Assembly (NCBI GenBank): GCA_025774805.1 | Contig: JALGZR010000035.1 | Span: 1 to 38,939 of the forward strand | Reading direction: 5' to 3' | Source: a bacterium | GTDB taxonomy: Bacteria > ARS69 | Length of the DNA: 38,939 bases | Shown: positions 4,709 to 27,648 of the stretch, in pieces | How positions within the stretch are numbered: position 1 is the first letter of the stretch | Layout: each line of letters starts with the position of its first letter | The notes under the pieces: generated by a model | What the model was told of the DNA's origin: nothing | Database searches by the model: none | What the model saw: only the letters and a program-made list of their open reading frames with translations | Translations under genes and position numbers: made by a program

Positions 4709-5728
4709 TTGAGCGATTCCCACGAACGCGACCTCTACCGTGACGCCGGCGTCGACGTGCGCGCCGGCGAGGACTTCGTCGAGCGGATTCGCGCCGCCGT
4801 GGAGGCCACGCGCACTCCGGCCGTGCTCGGAGCGGTCGGGGGGTTCGCCGGCCTGTTCGCGCCCGACCTCGCCGGTATGGAGGAGCCGGTTCTCGTCTCC
4901 TCGTCCGACGGCGTGGGCACGAAGCTCAAGCTCGCCTTCGCCACCGGCGAGCACGCCCGGGTGGGAGGGGATCTGGTGCGGCACTGCGCGAACGACGTCG
5001 CCGTTCTCGGGGCCCGCCCTCTCTACTTTCTCGACTATCTCGCCACCGGTCGTCTCGCCCCCGAGACCCTCGCGGCTCTCGTCGAAGGGATGGCCGCGGC
5101 CTGCGCGGACGAGGGGATGGCGCTGCTCGGAGGAGAGACGGCGGAGATGCCGGGCTTCTACGCCGACGGCGAGTACGACTGCGCCGGCTTCATCGTCGGG
5201 ATCGTCGACCGGGCGAAGATGATCGACGGATCCGAGATCGCTCCCGGGGACCGCCTGATCGGATTCCCGTCTTCCGGGCTCCACACGAACGGCTACAGCC
5301 TCGCCCGGAAGATCGTCGACGACTCCCCCCGGCTTTCGCTCGACCTCGCTCCTCCCGAGCTCGGGGGGGTGACGGTGGGGGAGGCTCTCCTCGCCCCTCA
5401 CGTCTCCTACACCCGCGAGATCCGCGCCCTCCTCGACGGCCCGGACGTCGGTGCGAAGGGCTTCGCCCACGTCACCGGAGGCGGGGTCGAGGGCAACTTG
5501 AAGCGGATCCTCCCCGCCGGGGTCGACGCGCGCGTCCACCCCGACCGTCGGCGGGAGCCTCCCGTCTTCGATCTCCTGCGCCGGGCCGGCGGCGTTCCCG
5601 AGAGCGACATGCGGTCGACGTTCAACCTCGGCGTGGGCCTGGTCGCGGTGATCGGAGGGAAGACGGAGCGGGGCTTCCCGATCGGAGAGATCGTCCCGGG
5701 TTCGGGCCGCGTCCTCTGGGACGACTAG
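4709..5728 (+). CDS. purM: Phosphoribosylformylglycinamidine cyclo-ligase (AIR synthetase)
   Basis: Catalyses the ATP-dependent ring closure of FGAM to AIR, the fifth step of de novo purine synthesis, in the cytosol. The 339-aa protein is of normal length. It shows [18 protein letters not shown] near the N-terminus, [13 protein letters not shown] around residue 65, [23 protein letters not shown] around residue 145, [11 protein letters not shown] and [13 protein letters not shown]. Start TTG 4709 is chosen because the conserved YRDAGVD motif begins nine residues later and no ATG precedes it in frame. It lies about 27 kb from the purB-L-Q-S-F cluster in the same window. Its TAG stop is inside the CTAG end of a foldback repeat. 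Confidence 0.95.
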
Positions 5729-5779
5729 CCTGCATTGCCCACCGGGCTCATCGCGACGCCGATGAGAGATGCAGGCCAG
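5725..5779. repeat. Short foldback repeat with a CTAG end, abutting purM
   Basis: A 55-base nested palindrome. The outer arms are CTAGCCTGCAT (5725-5735) and ATGCAGGCCAG (5769-5779), matching at 10 of 11 positions. The inner arms are CTCATCG (5747-5753) and CGATGAG (5760-5766), perfect. The left end resembles those of the larger elements at 19887 and 25495 (CTAGCCTGCAT). The purM stop TAG is bases 2-4 of the element. The right end has CCAG where a CTAG would be expected. It is probably a degraded or minimal member of the same family. Confidence 0.6.
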
Positions 5780-5872: not shown

Positions 5873-7009
5873 GTGCCGCCGCTCCGATGCGCCCGGCGCG
5901 CATGGTCTTGGCGACTTCCGAGCCCGCTGCTCACTCCCCGACGCTCCTCCCGCGGCACGCTGTCCGTCCCGTCCCCCCCGTCCCGCTCCGAGCCGTTTTC
6001 CGACGCCGTCCGCCGGGTCCTGCCCGTCGTGGGAAAGAGCCGCGCCTTTCTCGAGATGCTCTCCCTCGTCGAGTCCCTCGCGGGCACCGACACCACCGTT
6101 CTCGTCACCGGCGAGAGCGGCGTCGGCAAGGAGCTGGTGGCCCGGCTGATCCACGAGACGGGAAGCCCTCGCGGCACGTACCTTGCCCACAACTGCGCCG
6201 CGATCCCGGAGGGAACGCTCGAGAGCGATCTGTTCGGCCACGTGGCCGGAGCGTTCACCGGCGCGGTGGGGGCACGGCGAGGGCTGTTCGCGGAGGCGGA
6301 GGGAGGAGCGCTGTTTCTCGACGAGATCGGGGACATCAGCCCCCGCCTTCAGGCGCAGCTCCTGCGCGTGCTCCAGGAGGGAGAGATCCGGCGGGTGGGG
6401 GAGTCCCGCGTGCGGCGGGTCGACGTCCGGGTGATCGCCGCGACGAACCGGGACCTGGCCGCCGAAGTTCGCGCCGGAAGGTTTCGCGAGGACCTCTTCT
6501 ATCGACTGAACGTGGTCCAGGTGCGCGTGCCCCCGCTCCGGGAGCGGCGGAGCGACATCCCCCGGTTCGTGCGGAGGTTCCTCGAGCGTTCCGTGCGCAA
6601 GGGAGAGCCCGTGGGGGAGGTGCTCGGACCGGACGCGATGGAGAGCTTGCTGACGTATTCCTGGCCGGGCAACGTGCGGCAGCTCCGCAACGAGATCGAA
6701 CGGGCCACCTTGACGACGCGGGGCCGCGGTCGAATCGAGCGGAGGCACCTCTCCGAAGAGCTTCGGGACGGCGGAGCTTCGCTGCCGGCCATCGCCGGAA
6801 CCCTCCGGGAGCAGGTCGAGAGGGCCCAACGACGGATCGTTCTCGGCACGCTGCAGCGTCACCGGTGGAACAAGACGCGCAGCGCTCGCTCTCTCGGGAT
6901 CACGCGGCAGGGGCTGATCAAGATGATCCACCGGTTGGAGATCCCGATGCAGCCCCCGGCGGCGATGCGGCGATCGTGGGAGGAGGCGCCGACCGGCGAG
7001 GCGGCCTGA
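5873..7009 (+). CDS. Sigma-54-dependent transcriptional activator (AAA+ plus Fis-type HTH)
   Basis: Enhancer-binding protein that drives open-complex formation by RpoN polymerase. The AAA+ core has Walker A GESGVGKE (about residue 80), the sigma-54 contact loop GAFTGA, Walker [12 protein letters not shown], and [10 protein letters not shown]. It ends with a Fis-type helix-turn-helix ([20 protein letters not shown], about 332-351). Upstream of [11 protein letters not shown] the frame is arginine- and proline-rich with no recognisable receiver, GAF or PAS domain. The N-terminus is therefore doubtful: TTG 5735, ATG 5762 (inside the repeat), GTG 5873 and GTG 6029 are all possible, and none has a good Shine-Dalgarno. 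Such a protein would be controlled by its amount or by a partner. It converges with the envelope operon, 36 bases apart; its target genes are unknown. Confidence 0.85.
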
Positions 7010-13920: not shown

Positions 13921-16900
13921 CCTGCCGTCCGCTCCGCCTCCGACCGGCCGGAGACGCGGGCCACCGCCCACAGCTCGCGGACGATCCGGGCCACGTCCTC
14001 GGAGGCGAGGGTTCCGCCCGCCACGGGCAACGCGCAGGCCGCGAGCACGCGAGCGCGAACGCCGTCCTCGTCGAGCGGAGGACGCTCATCGAGATACCCC
14101 TCTCCGGTGAGATACTCCCTCAGATCGTCGCGCTTGCTCCGGCGGAAGTGCTTCACCTGGCCCGCCTCGATGGCCTGCATCAAGAGACGCGCGTCCCCCC
14201 CTTGCGTGTCCACGAGCTCCAGCACGCGCGGCCGCAGGGTCTCGCTCACTCCGGCATCGCGCAGGGCCGAGGCGTCCACCGGTCGCCCGCGACCGATTCG
14301 CCAGGCCGCGATGAACGCGTCGACGAGCTGCACCCGCGCGGCGATCCGGGCGGCGGCCTCCTCGCCGACGAGACCCTCGGCGGTCTCGTTCTCCTCCACG
14401 GCGCGCCACTGGCCGATCGTCCGGACGTGGTTCCGGAGCAGCCGGTGAAGAAGGGGCAGATCGTCCCGCAGCAGGTGAAAGAGGTGCACCTCTCCCGACG
14501 GCCGGCTCGGGTCGAATCGTTCCACCTTCAGGCGCGCCCCATAGTCCTCCGGACGTTCGTCGCCGGGCGACGGAACGGAGGGAAGGCCCGGGACCACGAG
14601 CTCCCCGGCGTCGGTCACGGCGCGATCGAACCCGCGCAGAGCGGCGAGGTCGAAGCGCACCGCTCCGGGGACCCCCTCCCTCTCCAGACGGTGGTCCCAC
14701 GCGGCCGCGTCGGCGGGATTCGCGCTCAGGTAGAACACCTGCCGTCCCTCGTCCCGGACGAGTGCGGCCAGGCTGCCCGCTACGGCGTGGAAGCGCTCGG
14801 GGTCGCTCGTGGTGAGCACCTCGTCGAGCACGAGGGGCAGCGGCCCTCCCGACGTCCGTTCCACCGCGCCCGCGAACGCGAGGCGCACGGCGAGAAGAAG
14901 CTGCACGCGCGTGCCGTCGGAGAGCTCACCGAGAGATCTCGTCCGGAGGGTCGCGCTCTCCCGCGCCCGGAGACGGGGCGGTTCCGTCTCCGTGTCGATC
15001 TCGAACGACCACTCGTGACCGGTGAAGCGATCGAAGAGCGCGCGGGCGCGACGGACCACGGCGGGACGTTGCGCGCGATCGTGCTCCTCCCGAATCCGCT
15101 CGACGAGGAACCGGCCGGCGGCGGCGCGCATCGCCTCCTCCCGCCGGGCGGCGAGCTCCTCGATCGCCTCGTCCCGCCGGGCCAGGGCCGACTCCAGCTC
15201 CGCGCCCTTCCGCGCGCGCTCGACGCCGGCCCGGATGCGTCCGATCCGCTCCTGCAGCTCGCCGAACCGATCCGCCTCCCGCTCCGCCGCGGCGATACGC
15301 TCCTCGAGGCGGGTCCCGTCCAAACCGCGAAGATCGTCCCGATCTCCGAGCCGCCTCTCCGCCTTCGCGACCCCCGCGGCGACCTCGGTCCGCTTCGCGA
15401 CGAGCGCGCGGCGCCTCTCCGCCAGCGGGATGTGCTCCTCCAACCACGCTTCGTCCGGTGAGCTCCGACCCAAGGTGCGCCAGAAATCCTCGAGTTCGCG
15501 ATCCGTGGTCGCGAGCTTCTTCCGGAGGATCTCGAGGTCCCGCTCCTCGCGCTCCCGGGCGGCATCCGCGTGGCCGCGCGCCGCGCTTCTCTCCCGAAGT
15601 CCCTCGATGCGCGTCTCGGCCTCCGCGGCGTCGTCGGCGATCGGCTCGCCATGACCGGCCAACCACGCATTCAGCGCGTCCCGGCTCGCGGCGGTCCGCC
15701 TCTCGATCTCCTCGTGCAGCTCACGCGCCGCCTCCGCCGCCCGCTCGGCGTCGCGCCACGCCGCGAGCTCGCGTCCGAGCGCCGCGAGGGTGAGGTCGGA
15801 TCGACCGGGGTCGACGCCCAGCGTGTCCCGGATCGCCTCGCGTTCGGCCGCGAGCTCCTCGCCCTCTTCTCGGAGCGCCTCCTCTCGCCGTCTCAGCTCG
15901 TCGATCCGAATCCGAGCGCTCTCGCGCAGCACCGCCTCCGCGCGGGCCGACGCGAGCTCTCGCCGGCGCCTCCGCACCGTGGATGGGGACCACTCCGCCG
16001 GATCCTCCAGCCCGAGCTCGCCCCACCGCCGGCCCATCTCCTCGCGGCGCCGCTCCGCGCCCCGGCCGACGGCCCCTCGCGCCGCGGCCAGCAGCAGCCC
16101 GACTCCCACACCGGCAAGGCCCCAGGCGACGGGATCGACGAGCAGCGCGAGCGCCGTGCCTCCGGCCAAGAGGAGAGCGGCGGCAATCCCGGCCGCCGGG
16201 ATTCGGGCGCGGGGACGCTTCGATTCGGCCAGCCACGCGTCGAGGATCTCGACTCCCTCCTCGAGGACGTACGGGGGAACGGCGTCCTCCCCCCCGGCCG
16301 ACGCCCCGAGCCAAGCGCGCTCGTGATGGAGAGCCGTGCCGGCCTGACGGAGCCGCTCGGCTCTCTCCAGAAACGCGTCCAGGGAATCGAGGGCCTCGCC
16401 GTCGGGCGGCGGCGACTCGGCGACGTCCCGGTCGCCGGCGAGAGCGGCCCTCGCCTTCCGCGCCGCGCCCGCGGTCTCCGCCGCATGCCGCGCCGCCGCC
16501 TCGCGCTCGCTTTCCCGCTGCCGGAGCTTCCGGCCGCGCTCGCTCCACGTGCGCCACTCCTGCTCGTCGAGGGGTCCGTCGGGGAGACGCGCCGCCGCGG
16601 CGGCGGCAATCGAGTCGTCGCGTCGTCGGGTCGCCTCCGCGATCTCGTCGGCGAGCTGCCGTCGTCGCTCCTTCAGGTGGTCGAGGCGCTCCCGCTCGTC
16701 CCCGCGAAACCGCTCGAGCTCCGGGGGGAGCGCGGCGAGCTCGGCGTCCACGTCCTCCAGATCTCCGCGCTCCTCGGCCAGATCCCGGGCCCGTCGCAGG
16801 GGCTCGAGGTCGGCCGCCGCGCGGCGCGCCCGATCACGGTCGCGCTCCGACTCGCGGAGCCCCCGCTCTTCCTCGGCGAGCGCCCGCTGTTCGGCGCGGA

Positions 16901-18973: not shown

Positions 18974-19051
18974 GTGCAACGATCGTTCGCCGCCCTCGCC
19001 GCCATTCTGTGGTGGCCGGAACCGCTCAACTCGACTGGTACTGGTAGATGA
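18974..19051 (+). CDS. 25-codon mini-ORF translationally coupled to the NYN gene
   Basis: GTG at 18974 is preceded by a perfect AGGAGG (18962-18967) at six bases, the strongest ribosome site in this area. The peptide begins MQRSFAALAAILWWPEPLNS, short, basic then hydrophobic with two Trp. It ends at TGA 19049-19051, overlapping the next ATG (19048) in a classic ATGA. The downstream gene has no Shine-Dalgarno of its own, so its translation probably depends on ribosomes finishing this ORF. It could be a leader peptide or a small partner protein; I know of no family. The 189-base gap before it shows only a weak TTGACG at 18861 without a good -10. Confidence 0.5.
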   Translation: MQRSFAALAAILWWPEPLNSTGTGR

Positions 19052-19890
19052 TGCCGGCCGCCTCCCCCGAGAGCCTCGCGCGCGATCTCGCGGTGTTCAT
19101 CGACTTCGAGAATCTCGCTCTCGGGTTCGAGGGGCGGGAAGGCGCGCCGTTCGACGTCGAGCGGGTTTTCGACCGCCTCGTGGAGAAGGGAAAGATCCTC
19201 GTGAAGCGGGCCTATTCCGACTGGAGCCGCTATCGGAAGTACACGGCGGGGCTTCACGAGGCGGGAGTGGAGCTCATCGAGATCCCCAAGCGCTCGATGA
19301 CGGGGAAGAACTCCGCCGATATCCGCATGGTCGTCGACGCGATGGACCTGAGCTACTCCAAGGAGCATATCGACACGTTCGTCATCGTCTCGGGGGACAG
19401 CGACTTCTCCCCGCTCGTCGCGAAGCTCAAGGAGAACGGGAAGTACGTCATCGGGCTGGGGATGCGGAAGTCGACGTCCAAGCTGCTCGCCGACCACTGC
19501 GACGAGTTCCTCTACTACGAGGATCTCAAGCCCGAGGAGCGGGAGGACAACGGGGCCTCCGCCGACTCGAAGCAGATCCCGAAGGAGAAGAGGGACGCGT
19601 GGTTCCTCCTCTTCGACGCGATTCGCGCGCTGCAGCGGGAGAACTACGAGGTCCTCTACTCGTCGCAGGTCAAGGACACCATGAAGCGGAAGCGTCCCTC
19701 GTTCACGGAGTCCTCCTACGGCTACCGCAGCTTCTCCGAGCTCCTCGAGGACGTCCAGGAGGCGGGGCACATCGCCCTGAGAACCGACGAGCGGAGCGGG
19801 ACGTACGTCGTGCAGAGCCTGCACTACGGTCGCCGCCGCCGGAAGCGGCGCTCCTCGACTCGCGCGGCCAAGAAGTCGGGGAAGGACTAG
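19048..19890 (+). CDS. NYN-domain RNase-like protein with a C-terminal LOTUS/OST-HTH domain
   Basis: A 280-aa protein of the LabA/DUF88/MARF1 type. The NYN (PIN-like) domain spans about residues 13-160. It shows VFIDFENLAL (D19), the KRAYSDWSRY strand, SADIRMVVDAMDL and VIVSGDSDFSPLV, which together give the acidic residues of a Mg2+-dependent RNase site. After a charged linker, residues about 185-265 (AWFLLFDAIRALQ... TESSYGYRSFSELLEDVQ... GTYVVQSL) match an OST-HTH/LOTUS RNA-binding domain. A lysine/arginine-rich tail follows. Start ATG 19048 overlaps the mini-ORF stop; ATG 19051 is an alternative. The TAG stop lies in the CTAG end of a foldback repeat. It likely acts on RNA, but the target is unknown. 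Confidence 0.88.
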   Translation: MMPAASPESLARDLAVFIDFENLALGFEGREGAPFDVERVFDRLVEKGKILVKRAYSDWSRYRKYTAGLHEAGVELIEIPKRSMTGKNSADIRMVVDAMDLSYSKEHIDTFVIVSGDSDFSPLVAKLKENGKYVIGLGMRKSTSKLLADHCDEFLYYEDLKPEEREDNGASADSKQIPKEKRDAWFLLFDAIRALQRENYEVLYSSQVKDTMKRKRPSFTESSYGYRSFSELLEDVQEAGHIALRTDERSGTYVVQSLHYGRRRRKRRSSTRAAKKSGKD

Positions 19891-20083
19891 CCCGCATCTC
19901 GGACTCGACCCGACCCTCTGTCACCAGCAGCGGTCGGTCGGGGGTCCCTCCCAGGCCGAGTGGCGAGCCGCGAGCTGAGCGATCCGAGTCGTGTGCCGCG
20001 ATCCTGTCGGCGAGCTTCGAGGCTCGGGAGGGATCCCGACCGACCGTGGCGGAGGCGCTGGTCCGGTGAGAAACGCGGGCTAG
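19887..20083. repeat. 197-base foldback element with CTAG ends between convergent genes
   Basis: The element starts CTAGCCCGCATCTC and ends GTGAGAAACGCGGGCTAG, whose reverse complement is CTAGCCCGCGTTTCTCAC. Inside is a strong inverted repeat: GGTCGGTCGGG at 19932-19942 with TCCCTCCC just after, against GGGAGGGATCCCGACCGACC at 20026-20045. The whole unit can fold into one long imperfect hairpin. It fills the gap between the NYN gene and the convergent membrane protein gene completely. The left CTAG contains the NYN stop and the right CTAG contains the other gene's stop. No ORF is evident inside. It looks like a non-autonomous mobile element (MITE-type) with a CTAG target duplication. Confidence 0.7.
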
Positions 20084-22452
20084 AGCGGGGCCCGCGCCGC
20101 GGTGATCCTCCCGACACCGAGAAGTCCCCAGACGCCGAGATAGAGGACGGCTCCCGTCATCCCCACGAGCGCGTAGCCCCAGATCATCGACAGCGCCAGC
20201 GACGTCACGCTCGCGACGACGCTGAACGCGCCGTTCATCGCCCAGAACCAGGCTCGGTTCTCCTCCGGGAATCGGATCATGCCCACGGGAAAGGGGAACC
20301 CCATCAGGAAGGAGGGGGGGAGCAGCAGGACGAGGGAGATCGCGACCCGACCGGGAAGAGGCCAGCCGAGCGTCCCGGCGAAGATGGGGGGAAGCGCGAG
20401 GCCGACCCCGGCCACGACGGCCGGCAGCGCGAGACCGGAACGCCGCACGCGGTCGACCGGGACTCGGGAGGCGGTGAGAGAGCCCGCGCCCGCGCCGAGC
20501 AGCATGGCCGCGAGCACGACCGTGGTCGCGTAGCTCGGGTGGCCCAGGTAGAGAATGAACCGATGGATCCAGGAGATTTCCACGAACAGGAACGCGAGTC
20601 CGATGCCGGCGAAATAGAGGCTTCCCGTCCAGAATCCGGGGGCCCGCCGCCGGCCGCGCCAGACCGCGAACGGAAGGAAGAAGAGGATCCCGGCGAGCAG
20701 CAGGACGACCGCGATGAGCTGGCGCAGCAGGACCACCGACTGCTCGTTCACCGAGAGGCGCGCCACGAGTCCGGCGTCAACCCGTCCGAGAATCGGAACG
20801 GTCTGGAAGAAGAAGGGCCGATCGTCCGTGGGAGGGGAGAGATCCAGTCCGGTGCTCGCCAGAGCTCCCGGTCCCTGCGTCAGTAGCCGGGGGATCATCG
20901 CCTGGCGGGGAGTCGACGGGAGAGGGGGCCAAGCTCGCGTGAAGCCGCGCTCCGCGCACACCTCGTCGATCCGTCGGTAGTCCGCCTCGGAGAACGGGGG
21001 CTTGGAGACGAGAAGGGTGGCCACCGCCCCCGCGTGCACGACGACGAGATGGCTCTCCGGACTGCCGATCCCCTCGCGTCGAAGGGCCGACTTCGCGAGC
21101 AGCACGAGCCGCGCGGTCTCCACGAGGTGGCGGTCGAGGAACCAGCGACTGATCGACACGATGCCCGTCTCCGTCAACCGTCGCCAGTAGAGGCGAAAGG
21201 CCTCCGTCGTGTAGAGGAAGTTCTCCGAAAGGGAGTAGGCGCCCGCCGCGGTCGCGGCCCAGCTGTCGACCATCGAGACCTGGATCAGGTCGTACCGCTC
21301 GCTGCTCCGGGTCAGGTGGCTCCTTCCCTCCCGCGCCACCGGGCGCACGCCGGGAAGGCGGTAGACGTCGCCCGAGTACTCCCGAAACGGACCGGACACC
21401 ACGTCGATGATGTGCCGGTTCAGCTCCACCGCCTCCACGCCGGTGGCCCCGCACCTCAGGGCCGTCAGCACATCGCGACCGCCGCCCGCGCCGATCACGC
21501 AGGCGCGCTCCACCGGGCGAACCTGGTATCCGAGACTCGTCACGTCGTAGAGCAGGTGATCCATCGCCTCGAGAGTGCCGGTCCACTTCGTGATCGGGCT
21601 CCCCGCCGATCCGTCCTGCTCCAGCCAGAGCTGTTCGACGGGCCGCGGCTCGAAGCGACTCCCGAATCCCCACGCGAACGCCTCGCTCGGATCGGCGAGG
21701 TGAAAGACGTCGGGGAAGACCGCGATCCTCCCCGTCGGAGTCCACTTCTCGTGAAGGAGCCGGCCGCCCTCCCGGTACTTCTTCGTGTAGGTCAGGCGAT
21801 ACGCCTCTCCGTGGAGGAGGGACGCGAGGAGAACCACGGCGATCCCTACCGCCCACACGACTCGCCGGGGCGCGAGCAGGGCCGCGGCCCCGAGCGGAAG
21901 GAGACCGGTCGCGGCGATCAGCGAGGGCGTGGGAAGGGCATCGAGCAGCGGAACCACGAACGCCGCCCCGAGCGTCGCTCCGAGCAGGTCCGCTCCGTAC
22001 ATCGTTCCGATGCTCCTTCCCGGAGCGCGCAACAGGAGCAGGCAGACGCTCGAGCCCAGCGCGAGGAACGGGATCAACAGGACGACCACGGTGAAGACGA
22101 CCTCGAGGCCGAGGAACGAGGCCTGCGCGCTGTCACCGAAGCTCGTCGCGGCGTCTCCGACGAGGTCCCCCCGGTGGAAGCGTCCGAGCCCCTGCGTGAT
22201 GGCCACGATCGAGGCGGGAATCGTGATCCCGGCGGCCAGCAGGGAACCGGTCAGCACGCCCCGCCGGGGAGGAAACCGGGAGAACCAGATGCCGGGCACT
22301 CCGAGGCCGAGGAGCGCGAGGGACACGGAGAGAAACGCGAAGTGATACCAGAGGACCACGCTCAGGACGCGCGTGATCGCCACCTCGTACAGGAGCAGGG
22401 CGGCGGACGCCGCCGCGATGGCGAAGTAGCGGTGGATCGCGGTGCCGATCAT
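20080..22452 (-). CDS. Membrane-bound spermidine-synthase-like protein
   Basis: About 790 aa combining hydrophobic helices with a spermidine synthase/methyltransferase-like domain. An N-terminal block of six to eight helices (for example YFAIAAASAALLLYEVAITR and LSVVLWYHFAFLSVSLALLG) precedes a Rossmann domain. That domain holds VIGAGGGRDVLTALRCGATG, VEAVELNRHI, and YDLIQVSMVDSWAATAAGAY followed by SLSENFLYT. A second helix block closes the chain (LYFAGIGLAFLFVEISWIHR onward). The GAGGGRD loop is the nucleotide/S-adenosyl-binding site. Such fused proteins are widespread but largely uncharacterised; whether it makes polyamines is unknown, though speA lies 3 kb away. Start ATG 22452 is preferred (GGGAG upstream) over GTG 22500. 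The stop is inside the foldback repeat. Confidence 0.82.
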   Translation of the reverse strand: MIGTAIHRYFAIAAASAALLLYEVAITRVLSVVLWYHFAFLSVSLALLGLGVPGIWFSRFPPRRGVLTGSLLAAGITIPASIVAITQGLGRFHRGDLVGDAATSFGDSAQASFLGLEVVFTVVVLLIPFLALGSSVCLLLLRAPGRSIGTMYGADLLGATLGAAFVVPLLDALPTPSLIAATGLLPLGAAALLAPRRVVWAVGIAVVLLASLLHGEAYRLTYTKKYREGGRLLHEKWTPTGRIAVFPDVFHLADPSEAFAWGFGSRFEPRPVEQLWLEQDGSAGSPITKWTGTLEAMDHLLYDVTSLGYQVRPVERACVIGAGGGRDVLTALRCGATGVEAVELNRHIIDVVSGPFREYSGDVYRLPGVRPVAREGRSHLTRSSERYDLIQVSMVDSWAATAAGAYSLSENFLYTTEAFRLYWRRLTETGIVSISRWFLDRHLVETARLVLLAKSALRREGIGSPESHLVVVHAGAVATLLVSKPPFSEADYRRIDEVCAERGFTRAWPPLPSTPRQAMIPRLLTQGPGALASTGLDLSPPTDDRPFFFQTVPILGRVDAGLVARLSVNEQSVVLLRQLIAVVLLLAGILFFLPFAVWRGRRRAPGFWTGSLYFAGIGLAFLFVEISWIHRFILYLGHPSYATTVVLAAMLLGAGAGSLTASRVPVDRVRRSGLALPAVVAGVGLALPPIFAGTLGWPLPGRVAISLVLLLPPSFLMGFPFPVGMIRFPEENRAWFWAMNGAFSVVASVTSLALSMIWGYALVGMTGAVLYLGVWGLLGVGRITAARAPL

Positions 22453-22621
22453 TCGCTCCCACAGAGGCGAACGAGAGGAGGTGGTTCGCGGGTGGGTCAC
22501 GGTATCACGGGCTCGCGCGGTTCAGCAACGACGCGCGGAACGGGGGAGATCGGTCGCTCGTGACCGGGACCCTCGGCCGTGATATCCTCCGCGCCGGCTC
22601 TTCCCTTCCGGAGGTTTGCTC

Positions 22622-23840: not shown

Positions 23841-25451
23841 GTGAAGCGGCCCGAGGTCGGCCCCGCACTTGACCACCGACCGGGGAGGGCGGTCCTTCTC
23901 GGGAAGTCCCTGCTCGCCGGTGGGCTGCTGGCGACTTCCTTTCCGCCGTTCGATCTGACGTTCGTCGCGTTCGTCGGACTCGTGCCCCTGCTCGGCGTCC
24001 TCGAGGATCTGGCGCGGACGGGCCGGGATCGTCCCCTGCGCGACTGGGGAGGTTCGGCGTTCCTCTCGGGAATGGTCACCGGGTTCGTCTACTTCCTCGC
24101 CCTCCTCTGGTGGATCGTCGTCCTCGACGCGCCCTCGCTGACCATTCCGTGGGTCCGGTACCCGGGTACGCTCGCGATCGTCGGCTACCTCGCCCTCTTC
24201 CACGGGATCTTCGCCCTCGCGTACGCGTGGATACGAGCCCGCGTCGGGACGCCGCCGGCGTTCTTGGCTCCCCTGCTCTGGACGATCTGCGATCTCGCCC
24301 GGGCCCGGGGGCAGCTCGCGTTTCCGTGGGGCGAGCTCGGGTACTCCCAGGTCCCGTTCCTGCCCGCGCTCCAGATCGCCGCCGTTCTCGGGTTGCGGGG
24401 GATCACCGCCTGGACCGTTCTCGTCAACACGCTCGCCCTCCCTCTCACGCGACCGGGGGGGTTCCGTTTTCGACCGGCTCTGTGGCTCCTACTCGTCTTC
24501 GGGCTGCCGGTGGCGGGCGGCGCGCTGCGGCTCGCCCGTTCGACGGAGCGGCCCACGGCCCGGGTCGCCCTCGTCCAACCCGACGTGGGGAACGACGAGA
24601 AGTGGGATCCCGCCCGACGGGCGGAGATCTTCGAGAACATGGCGTCGTTGACGCGCGCGGGCGTCGAGGCGGGGGCGGACCTGGTCGTCTGGCCGGAGAC
24701 CGCGGCCCCCTGCTACCTGCTCAAGGACCGCACCTGGCGGCCGTGGGTCGAAGAGCTCGTCGCCGAAGGCGGCACTCCCCTCCTCGCGGGAATGCCGGAC
24801 TACGAGATCGTCGAGGATGGAGAGGAACGACGGGTCGCCTACCGCAACACCGGGGCCTTCTTCGACGGTACCGGGCGGTTCGTCGATCGCATGTACAAGA
24901 TTCAACTGGTTCCGTTCGGCGAGCGGGTGCCCTTCAGCGATTGGATCGGGGCGCTCGACCGCGTCGACTTCGGCGAGGCCGACTTCATCCCGGGAACGCG
25001 GTTCGTCCTCTTCGACGGAGGGGGCTGGAAGTTCGGCAACCTCGTCTGCTTCGAGGCGATCTTCCCGCACCTCACGCGGCGTTACGCCGTCGACGGGGCC
25101 GAGATGCTCGTCAACATCACGAACGACTCCTGGTTCGGCGCCGGATCCGGGGCCGAGCAGCACGCTCGAATGGCGGTCGCGCGGTGCGTGGAGACCGGCT
25201 GCGGGATGGCGCGGTGCGCGAACTCGGGGATCTCTCTCGGCGCGGATCCCTACGGACGGATCACCGGCCGGACCCCGCTCTTCGAGCGGACGCTCTCCGT
25301 CGTCGACGTGCCGCTCCGCCGGGGATGGACACCTTACGTCCGCTTGGGGGACTGGATCGCTCGGCTCTCGCTCGTCGGGGCTCCGCTCCTGATCGTTGCG
25401 GCGTTCCTCCGGGGCCGCAAAGGAGTCCCCCCCGGGCGCGCGGTGGGGTAG
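23841..25451 (+). CDS. lnt: Apolipoprotein N-acyltransferase
   Basis: Transfers the third acyl chain from phospholipid to the N-terminal Cys of apolipoproteins at the inner membrane. 536 aa. The N-terminal half has about six helices (from AVLLGKSLLAGGLLATSFPP to AAVLGLRGITAWTVLVNTLA). The periplasmic nitrilase-like domain begins RVALVQPDVGNDEKWDP. The triad is visible as E286 in VVWPETAAPC, K353 in YKIQLVPFGERVPF, and C403 in LVCFEAIFPHL, at spacing close to the E. coli enzyme. A C-terminal helix (LSLVGAPLLIVAAFL) closes it. Its presence supports a diderm cell with triacylated lipoproteins. GTG 23841 follows apgM by seven bases. Confidence 0.95.
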   Translation: MKRPEVGPALDHRPGRAVLLGKSLLAGGLLATSFPPFDLTFVAFVGLVPLLGVLEDLARTGRDRPLRDWGGSAFLSGMVTGFVYFLALLWWIVVLDAPSLTIPWVRYPGTLAIVGYLALFHGIFALAYAWIRARVGTPPAFLAPLLWTICDLARARGQLAFPWGELGYSQVPFLPALQIAAVLGLRGITAWTVLVNTLALPLTRPGGFRFRPALWLLLVFGLPVAGGALRLARSTERPTARVALVQPDVGNDEKWDPARRAEIFENMASLTRAGVEAGADLVVWPETAAPCYLLKDRTWRPWVEELVAEGGTPLLAGMPDYEIVEDGEERRVAYRNTGAFFDGTGRFVDRMYKIQLVPFGERVPFSDWIGALDRVDFGEADFIPGTRFVLFDGGGWKFGNLVCFEAIFPHLTRRYAVDGAEMLVNITNDSWFGAGSGAEQHARMAVARCVETGCGMARCANSGISLGADPYGRITGRTPLFERTLSVVDVPLRRGWTPYVRLGDWIARLSLVGAPLLIVAAFLRGRKGVPPGRAVG

Positions 25452-25494
25452 GATCCACCTCGGGACTTCGCGAAGGGCAACGCCGTGAGTGAGC

Positions 25495-25676
25495 CTAGCC
25501 TGCATATCTCACCAGCCTCTGCTGCGGCAGCGGCAAAGCCGCGCCTGACTTCGTCGTTGGGGCGCTTCCGCCCTGCGACGGGGCTACGGCCTCGCCTCGG
25601 GCGAAAACACCCCATCTCCTCGCCATACACGACTATCCGCTGCCTCGCGACGAGCCTGGTGAGAAATGCAGCCTAG
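25495..25676. repeat. 182-base foldback element with CTAG ends, overlapping the speA start
   Basis: Left terminal repeat 25495-25519 starts CTAGCCTGCATATCTCACCA. The right terminal repeat 25652-25676, reverse complemented, starts CTAGGCTGCATTTCTCACCA. They match at 22 of 25 positions. The interior is also imperfectly self-complementary (GTTGGGGCGCTTCCGCCC near 25556 against the reverse complement of GGGCGAAAACACCCCATC near 25599), so the unit folds as one long hairpin. Both ends are CTAG, as in the element at 19887. No protein is encoded. It fills the gap between lnt and speA and carries the speA ATG at 25666. MITE- or REP-like; no transposase is in the window. Confidence 0.78.
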
Positions 25677-27648
25677 TTTCTGGACGATTCGGGATTCCGT
25701 CGATCTCTACCGGGTCGACTCCTGGGGGGCGGGGTTCTTTCGGATCAGCCCCCGGGGTCACGTCGAGGTCACCCCGCGCGGACCCGACGGCCCCTCGGTC
25801 GACCTCCTCGAGCTCGTCACCGGGCTGAAGGAGCGAGGGCTCGGGTTGCCCCTGCTGCTTCGCTTTCCCGACATCATCGCCCGCCGGGTCGAAGCGCTCT
25901 GCAATGCCTTCGATCGGGCCATCGCCACCGAAGGCTACCGCGGCGCCCACCAGTGCATCTACCCGATCAAGGTCAACCAGCAGCGCAAGGTCGCCGAGGC
26001 GGTGCTGAGCGGGGCCGACCATCGTACGCTCGGTCTGGAAGCCGGATCAAAGCCCGAGGTTCTCGCCGCCCTCGCCCTCGCCGACGCCCCCGAATCCCTG
26101 ATCGTGCTCAACGGCTACAAGGACCACGAGTACGTGGAGACGGCGTTGCTCGCGACGAAGCTCGGGCGGAACGTCGTCCTGGTCGTGGATCGCTACCGGG
26201 AGCTCGATCTCATTCTGCGCGTGGCGGAGCGGCTCGACATCCGACCGCAGGTCGGAGTCCGGGTGCAGCTCGACACCCAGGTGGAGGGGAGGTGGATCGG
26301 ATCGAGCGGACTGGGCTCGAAATTCGGTCTCGAGTCCGCCGAGCTCGTCGCCGGAGTGGAGAAGCTCCGGGATCGAGGGATGCTCGACGCGCTCGTGCTG
26401 CTCCACTTCCACGTCGGCAGCCAGATACCCGGGATCCGCGGCCTCAAGGACGCGGTGCAGGAGGCGGCCCGGGTCTACGTCGAGCTCCACCGCCTCGGCG
26501 TTCCGCTTCGCTACCTCGACGTGGGCGGTGGGCTGGCCGTGGACTACGACGGTTCGCGGTCGACGAGCCACTCCTCGATGAACTACGACCTCCAGGAGTA
26601 CGCGAACAACGTCATCTACCACGTTCGCGAGATGTGCGACGAGCTCGACGTGCCCCACCCGATCATCGTGAGCGAGTCGGGACGGGCCCTGGTGGCCCAC
26701 CATTCCGTGCTCGTGCTGAGCGTGCCCGACATGGAGGAAGGACTGCCCGACGTCGTCCCCGACCCGGTCTCCTCGGACGAGCACCGCGTCCTCCACTCCC
26801 TGTACGAGACGTGGAGATCGGTCTCGCCGTCGAACGTCAGCGAATGCTGGACCGACGCCAATTTCGCCCGGGAAGAGGCGGTCACGCTCTTCGCGAACGG
26901 CGTGCTCGACCTGAAAGGCCGCGCCCGCGCCGATGAGCTCTACCGGGCCTGCTGCGCGCGGATCCTCGACCTCGTACGGAGGATGGACTCGGTCCCGAAG
27001 GGGCTCGCCGACCTCGAGCGCGAGTCGTGCGACATCTACTTCGGGAACTTCTCGATCTTCCAATCGGCACCGGACAGCTGGGCGATCGATCAGCTCTTCC
27101 CCGTTCTCCCGATCCACCGCCTCGACGAGGAGCCCACCCGGCGGGGCATCCTCGCCGACCTCACGTGCGACTCCGACGGGGTGATCGACCGCTTTCTCGG
27201 ATCGCCCGAGGGCCGACCCGTCCTCGAGCTGCACCCTCTCGACGATCAGCCGTACTACCTGGGGATCTTCCTCCTCGGGGCGTACCAGGAGATCCTCGGC
27301 GACTACCACAACCTCTTCGGGGACACGAACGCGGTGCAGGTCTCTCTCGATCGGGAGGGAAGACCGCTGCTGGCCGACGTCGTCGAGCTCGACACGGTGA
27401 CCGATGTGCTCGGTTACGTGGGATACGATCGCCGGGACCTTCTCGCGCGGATGCGGCGCGCGGTGGAGAAGGCGCTGCTGGAGGGGACACTCACGCGCCG
27501 GGAATCGGCCCTCTTCCTGCGGGACTACGAGCACGGCCTCTCCGGCACGACCTACCTGGAGGACGAGGCGGTCGAGGAGGCGGCCGAACCGACGGGGTCC
27601 GGCCCGGAGATCTCCCGAGAGAAGGTGTCTCCTCCCGTGGTGCCCTGA
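25666..27648 (+). CDS. speA: Biosynthetic arginine decarboxylase
   Basis: PLP enzyme converting arginine to agmatine, first step of the agmatine route to putrescine. 660 aa, normal for the SpeA type. Motifs include WTIRDSVDLYRVDSWG, CIYPIKVNQQRKV with the PLP lysine K102, GLGSKFGLE, LHFHVGSQIPGIRG, YLDVGGGLAVDYDG, and LADLTCDSDG with the catalytic C501 near the other end of the shared active site. The start ATG lies within the right terminal repeat of a foldback element. An in-frame TGA six bases upstream rules out a longer frame, and no other start precedes the conserved WTIRDS. The ribosome site GGTGAG is close and weak. A glycosyltransferase gene follows by 26 bases. Confidence 0.95.
   Translation: MQPSFWTIRDSVDLYRVDSWGAGFFRISPRGHVEVTPRGPDGPSVDLLELVTGLKERGLGLPLLLRFPDIIARRVEALCNAFDRAIATEGYRGAHQCIYPIKVNQQRKVAEAVLSGADHRTLGLEAGSKPEVLAALALADAPESLIVLNGYKDHEYVETALLATKLGRNVVLVVDRYRELDLILRVAERLDIRPQVGVRVQLDTQVEGRWIGSSGLGSKFGLESAELVAGVEKLRDRGMLDALVLLHFHVGSQIPGIRGLKDAVQEAARVYVELHRLGVPLRYLDVGGGLAVDYDGSRSTSHSSMNYDLQEYANNVIYHVREMCDELDVPHPIIVSESGRALVAHHSVLVLSVPDMEEGLPDVVPDPVSSDEHRVLHSLYETWRSVSPSNVSECWTDANFAREEAVTLFANGVLDLKGRARADELYRACCARILDLVRRMDSVPKGLADLERESCDIYFGNFSIFQSAPDSWAIDQLFPVLPIHRLDEEPTRRGILADLTCDSDGVIDRFLGSPEGRPVLELHPLDDQPYYLGIFLLGAYQEILGDYHNLFGDTNAVQVSLDREGRPLLADVVELDTVTDVLGYVGYDRRDLLARMRRAVEKALLEGTLTRRESALFLRDYEHGLSGTTYLEDEAVEEAAEPTGSGPEISREKVSPPVVP

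Follow-up and report, generated by a model that had tools for sequence, protein, structure and literature searches.

The arginine decarboxylase gene speA lies directly behind a 182-bp inverted repeat in the window (the whole stretch of 38,939 nucleotides that was analysed), and its reading frame opens inside that repeat, which raises the questions of where the repeat came from, what became of the older start of the gene and how speA is now translated. The explanation that we consider probable is that the repeat is a non-autonomous MITE, moved by an IS1380-type transposase and inserted at CTAG, that it exchanged the start of speA for an in-frame ATG of its own, and that ribosomes would reach this ATG by re-initiation after a leader. 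The features at the junction are as follows.

25495-25676, no strand assigned: 182-bp MITE copy at the start of speA (inverted repeats; more than 40 near-full copies in the genome; 30-copy alignment)
25495-25498, no strand assigned: left CTAG, putative copy of the target-site duplication (boundary of similarity in the 30-copy alignment; joining the flanks with a single CTAG restores an in-frame native start)
25499-25519, plus strand: left terminal repeat, CCTGCATATCTCACCAG plus CCTC (arm pairing)
25652-25672, minus strand: right terminal repeat, CCTGGTGAGAAATGCAGC in outward reading (arm pairing)
25673-25676, no strand assigned: right CTAG, of which the TAG at 25674-25676 is the stop of the leader frame
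25658-25662, plus strand: GGTGA, Shine-Dalgarno-like, 3 nt 5' of the ATG (GAA spacer)
25666-25668, plus strand: speA ATG supplied by the element, opening the frame 25666-27648
25666-27648, plus strand: speA, biosynthetic arginine decarboxylase, single copy in the genome (660-aa frame; NF003763, 820.9 bits; TIGR01273, 721.3 bits)

The original prediction described a foldback unit with 25-base terminal inverted repeats, and this description holds: 22 of the 25 bases of 25495-25519 pair with 25652-25676, CTAG stands at both ends, and the RNA of the self-complementary unit has a folding energy of -88.5 kcal/mol, shuffles giving -64.0 +/- 4.1 (z = -5.9). At 182 bp the unit is too short for a transposase gene, and its sole long frame is a 63-codon leader (see below). 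It lacks the GTAG-type head and the hairpin inside each single unit that define REP/BIME sequences, since its end motif starts with CTAG and no internal hairpin was seen on inspection of the alignment. A promoter scan around the speA/element region found nothing.

The source is a 5.1-Mb draft genome of 284 contigs, in which the stretches around elements and twelve further 20-kb stretches were examined. At least 40 near-full copies of the unit (90-96% identity) occur in this genome, and the end motif matched 322 times, against 0 matches for a reversed control pattern; 251 distinct ends were recorded in the DNA examined, so that ends of this kind number in the hundreds and the copy number of the element in this bacterium is well over a hundred. 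Most elements belong to the 182-bp form (180-183 bp) or to forms of 55-98 bp, with short classes at about 55, 65, 70, 78 and 83 bp. In an alignment of 30 copies the similarity spans from CTAG to CTAG and the flanks outside are unrelated, i.e., the copies are dispersed and have fixed ends, as in a MITE.

The proposed start of speA agrees with what had been predicted: the ATG at 25666 falls inside the right arm (25652-25676), a TGA at 25660-25662 stands upstream in the same frame, and conserved SpeA residues follow at once, with PRK05354 (NCBIfam) aligning from residue 4 and TIGR01273 from residue 6. The GGTGA before the ATG is a candidate for pairing with UCACC of the 16S tail. The displaced start and its neighbours could be located upstream of the element.

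23841-25451, plus strand: lnt, apolipoprotein N-acyltransferase-like, named by resemblance and by the label in the original prediction (open reading frame; same gene order in L062 and L063)
25473-25477, plus strand: AAGGG, native Shine-Dalgarno-like motif 7 nt before the GTG at 25485 (sequence)
25485-25487, plus strand: native speA GTG start, displaced by the element (empty-site frame GTGAGTGAGCCTAGTTTC; equivalent starts after lnt in relatives)

In two genomes of the same family (L062 and L063, SpeA identity 70% and 66%) lnt is followed directly by speA and the element is absent, so the unit is not a conserved leader of the gene. The distance between the two genes is 35 nt in L062, where speA begins ATG GCC CAT CCG AAT CGC TGG (MAHPNRW), and 23 nt in L063, where it begins with ATG; in the window 33 nt separate the lnt stop from the GTG at 25485. 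These empty junctions are too divergent for a base-by-base comparison, and the reconstruction of the site relies on the window, where joining the two flanks with one CTAG (VSEPSFWTIRDSVDLY) restores the reading frame of speA. The collapsed junction reads GTGAGTGAG-CCTAG-TTTC, that is GTG AGT GAG CCT AGT TTC TGG, or MSEPSFWTIRD, with the same length to the first tryptophan as in MAHPNRW of L062. The filled site is predicted to give MQPSFWTIRD from the ATG of the element; since the insertion struck codons 4-5 behind an existing start, the change to the protein is limited to MSEPSFW becoming MQPSFW. CTAG was probably duplicated on insertion.

It had also been suggested that the insertion rewrote both the 5' end and the expression of speA. 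The first part stands, as the start codon comes from the element, and with it the Shine-Dalgarno-like bases that lie closest, while the second gained no support; the effect on expression could be nearly neutral, because ribosomes probably continue to load at the old start, by way of the leader frame.

Near the start of a gene an insertion is normally thought to kill the gene. About a dozen genes appear to have had their starts replaced by the element without loss, and the counts for the whole genome (genes called with a home-made codon score trained on this genome) point in the same direction. Genes pointing outward from an element lie in the frame of its ATG in 24 cases, against 9 and 7 in the other two frames (p=0.0005). 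When the flanks were joined, a native start with no stop between was found up to 14 codons upstream in 15 of the 23 ATG-frame cases with both ends known, compared to one of nine for the second possible frame (p=0.008) and, among controls, 38 of 138 (p=0.0006); as about 28% of control ends thus have an upstream start by chance, the 15 reconstructed swaps probably include some spurious ones, and one of them (L242) is a nested copy in which the upstream "start" is the ATG of another element. Inside genes CTAG can be read only as xCT-AGx or CTA-Gxx, for which codon usage predicts a ratio of 1.32:1, and the near-start insertions are distributed 15:1, so that the rescuable frame has 15 of 16 (p=0.0016 against a codon-usage null of 0.57). 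An insertion near a start in the xCT-AGx frame would be survivable because the outward end, GGTGA-GAA-ATG-CAG-GCT-AG, gives an in-frame ribosome site and a start; the insertion at codons 4-5 of speA was of this kind. Swaps were reconstructed from the sequences at about a dozen to 14 genes besides speA, among them a glycosyltransferase (L246, MKPRILMSAYACNP to MQARILMSAYACNP; no close orthologue was found among relatives for a comparison of the N-terminus), a phosphodiesterase-type protein (L262, MSRDSG to MQARDSG; a relative in L340 begins MSRRVLVIALDG), a DsbD-type protein (L035, with GGAGG before ATGACTAGG) and a DASS-type transporter (L018). The element thus can, as far as these reconstructions go, land in the first codons of a gene without the gene being lost.

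The old start of speA has not disappeared. From the GTG at 25485 a second frame enters the element as AGC CTG CAT and runs across the whole unit to the TAG of the right-hand CTAG.

25485-25676, plus strand: leader frame of 63 codons, opening at the native start, crossing the element and sharing 11 nt with the start of speA (translation; stop at +8 nt from the ATG)

The same geometry recurs elsewhere in the genome: in 13 of 14 swaps the frame of the old start has its stop in the interval from -6 to +8 nt around the new ATG, compared with 76 of the 166 other ends (p=0.0005); with only long elements counted, the figures are 10 of 11 against 39 of 90 (p=0.003). A leader stop close to a new ATG is the geometry required for termination and re-initiation (PMC4833913, PMC6728339), and as the old-start frame closes at the new ATG or right beside it, translation of the leader followed by re-initiation is probable. 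Ribosomes translating the leader peptide would unfold the hairpin in which the new start is otherwise buried and, after termination, would begin again on speA; we infer a coupled leader peptide and re-initiation at speA from this arrangement. Taken with the frame counts, the leader counts appear to carry a clear statistical trace of selection. For the wider proposal, that the element acts as a portable two-cistron start cassette, in which, on insertion into the first codons of a gene, an old start would be turned into a leader peptide and the ribosome passed on to the ATG of the element, so that starts would be tolerated as landing sites throughout the genome alongside stops via CTAG, we see about even chances.

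A simpler reading, in which ribosomes bind directly to the GGTGA and ATG of the element and the leader frame has no role, is possible but in our judgement clearly less probable than coupling. Most copies have GGTGA 3 nt upstream of the ATG, and the local fold around the speA ATG is not unusually strong (-12.9 kcal/mol, z +1.4), as direct binding would have it; in the fold of the full unit, however, the terminal stem sequesters the region of the ATG, and direct initiation does not predict that the leader should stay open up to the new ATG in nearly all swaps and in less than half of the other ends. Re-initiation from the leader is the reading that we retain.

Insertion at CTAG also touches the other ends of genes. 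In 279 kb (the 12 stretches L318-L329 and the window) CTAG is found at 6% of expectation (49 against 837 sites). In the same DNA TTAA likewise stands at 6% of expectation, and GATC and TCGA are over-represented 3.5-3.8 times. The stop of an inward-running gene coincides with the TAG of the element's CTAG at 85 of 249 ends, and 42 of the 93 two-ended elements carry at least one gene stop on such a TAG. Two further copies in the window are of this kind.

5725-5779, no strand assigned: short copy (55 bp), right end with an ATG at 5769, giving the TAG stop of the gene 4709-5728 on the plus strand
19887-20083, no strand assigned: second copy (197 bp) with a degraded left end, between convergent genes (19048-19890, plus strand, and 20080-22500, minus strand, stop on its two TAGs)

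The gene at 4709-5728 resembles purM in its sequence. Active targeting of stop codons was not adopted as an explanation, as unoccupied CTAGs in the neighbourhood of elements coincide with stops at a similar rate (7 of 16); docking at stops arises because CTAG is rare and often positioned at gene ends. Nor do elements occupy almost every CTAG, since they account for 7 of the 49 sites in the 279 kb. A transposase of the IS1380 family would insert the unit at CTAG and duplicate it, and the sites available to it would be few, often at gene ends (C-TAG) or within genes as xCT-AGx or CTA-Gxx; at a stop codon the duplicated CTAG would keep the gene intact.

An unrelated deltaproteobacterial MAG, in which genes were called by a third-position G+C rule, has elements with the same ends and a different interior. 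The bias towards stop codons is seen there in 23 of 44 coding ends; no start swaps were found in it, and its element also has early stops in the frame concerned. The VGTG MAG (deltaproteobacterial; L094-L170) contains 186-bp elements by the dozen, nearly identical to one another, which share these ends but have an unrelated interior and often lie at contig edges; they represent a recent burst.

The exact end motif was found in more than 100 stretches from several phyla, mostly as paired short elements, and nearly identical ends are found on IS1380 transposases of genomes that carry it. In L196 a 489-codon IS1380 transposase (NF033539 match) lies between the ends CTAACCCGGATTTCTCACGAG and CTAGCCCGATTTCTCACGAG, and in L195, an Eisenbacteria MAG, a 459-codon IS1380 transposase (NF033539 match) is followed by the right end TTAGCCCGCATTTCTCACCAC; the ends of the unit thus match both ends of the L196 element and the right end of the L195 element. 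An IS3-like transposase gene (L195, 262-1146) adjoins the latter and seems to have removed its left end. The ends of relics in L201, L208 and L211 agree with the IS1380 ends. In the assembly of the window's own genome a search for an intact IS1380 gene yielded only a 131-aa relic (C17), with no matching ends nearby; as this relic is all that the draft assembly holds, the unit is described here as most likely moved by IS1380 rather than as a member of that family. The lack of an intact gene might be a consequence of the assembly, since MAG assembly may lose multicopy transposons. From the ends we infer, as the best reading, that the unit was mobilised by an IS1380-family transposase.

That a transposase of another type moved it is unlikely in our view. 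The missing intact IS1380 gene speaks for such a mover, as does the fact that CTAG-like (YTAR) targets have also been described for IS5; yet PF01609 (DDE_Tnp_1), which covers the IS4/IS5 types, found no match in this genome, and IS1380 elements elsewhere have nearly the same ends, including CTAG. IS1380 remains the preferred source.

Two further readings carry little weight. It is very unlikely that the genes start downstream at codons of their own and that the element is in frame by chance: several ATG-frame cases do have an obvious start of their own (e.g., L256 and L279), and chance frames occur at the low rate of the two other frames given above, but the next in-frame ATG, GTG or TTG after the element is about 56 codons into the protein in speA, and none occurs for 51 codons in L018 and 50 in L315, and signal-peptide-like starts follow directly after the element's ATG in L028 and L035; for speA this reading now fails, except in the case of a rare start codon. 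An immobile regulatory RNA leader of speA (e.g., a polyamine-responsive one), which the strong fold and the position directly before the gene might suggest, is refuted by the hundreds of copies beside unrelated genes and on stops and by its absence before speA in relatives, and no curated Rfam family matched in the window, so that we give it next to no credence.

IS1380 insertion sequences such as those of L195 and L196 share with the unit the end type CTAGCCCG-ATTTCTCACSAG and CTAG/TTAG flanks, but they carry a transposase gene, which the 182-bp unit does not. Bacterial MITEs fused to reading frames are known from RPE of Rickettsia, ERIC, YPAL and the 107-bp form of Correia (PMC10969869, PMC2229807), which are likewise small, palindromic, of high copy number and sometimes joined in frame with genes; these add an internal peptide or a tail, whereas at several genes the end of the present element takes the place of start codon and ribosome site, and its internal frame would become a separate leader. 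For MITEAba12, start codons near the element ends were noted as possibly fusing to neighbouring genes (PMC6382973); there the possibility is mentioned in passing, whereas here the pattern is genome-wide, frame-biased and supported by empty sites. In leader-peptide re-initiation and in bicistronic designs a short first frame ends beside the start of the main gene (PMC4833913, PMC6728339, PMC5995908), but in the present case the leader cassette would arrive by transposon insertion, with coupling read from the sequence. A limited literature search found neither an IS1380 MITE with start-swapping behaviour nor any description of MITEs that take over start codons at many genes or have a geometry suited to leader coupling. 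The element offers a concrete and cheap way to test how a transposon reshapes protein N-termini and the control of translation, and annotators should be aware that in such genomes repeats contribute the N-termini (MQA/MRA) as well as the stop codons of many genes.

Related repeats were also noted outside this family. In G002, one of four genomes of the same family of bacteria that were examined, two elements (L091, 1501-1662, and L092, 1501-1608) have a similar interior and different terminal repeats (CTAGTTCGGGTGGCGGGAGGGTTC), which suggests that the ends were exchanged and the core kept. In L321, other paired repeats with CTAGCC ends and a different inner sequence occur at 6837-6986 and 14266-14465 (CTAGCCCGGACTATTC and CTAGCCTTGATCTTCC); they are probably further MITE families with the same CTAG target.
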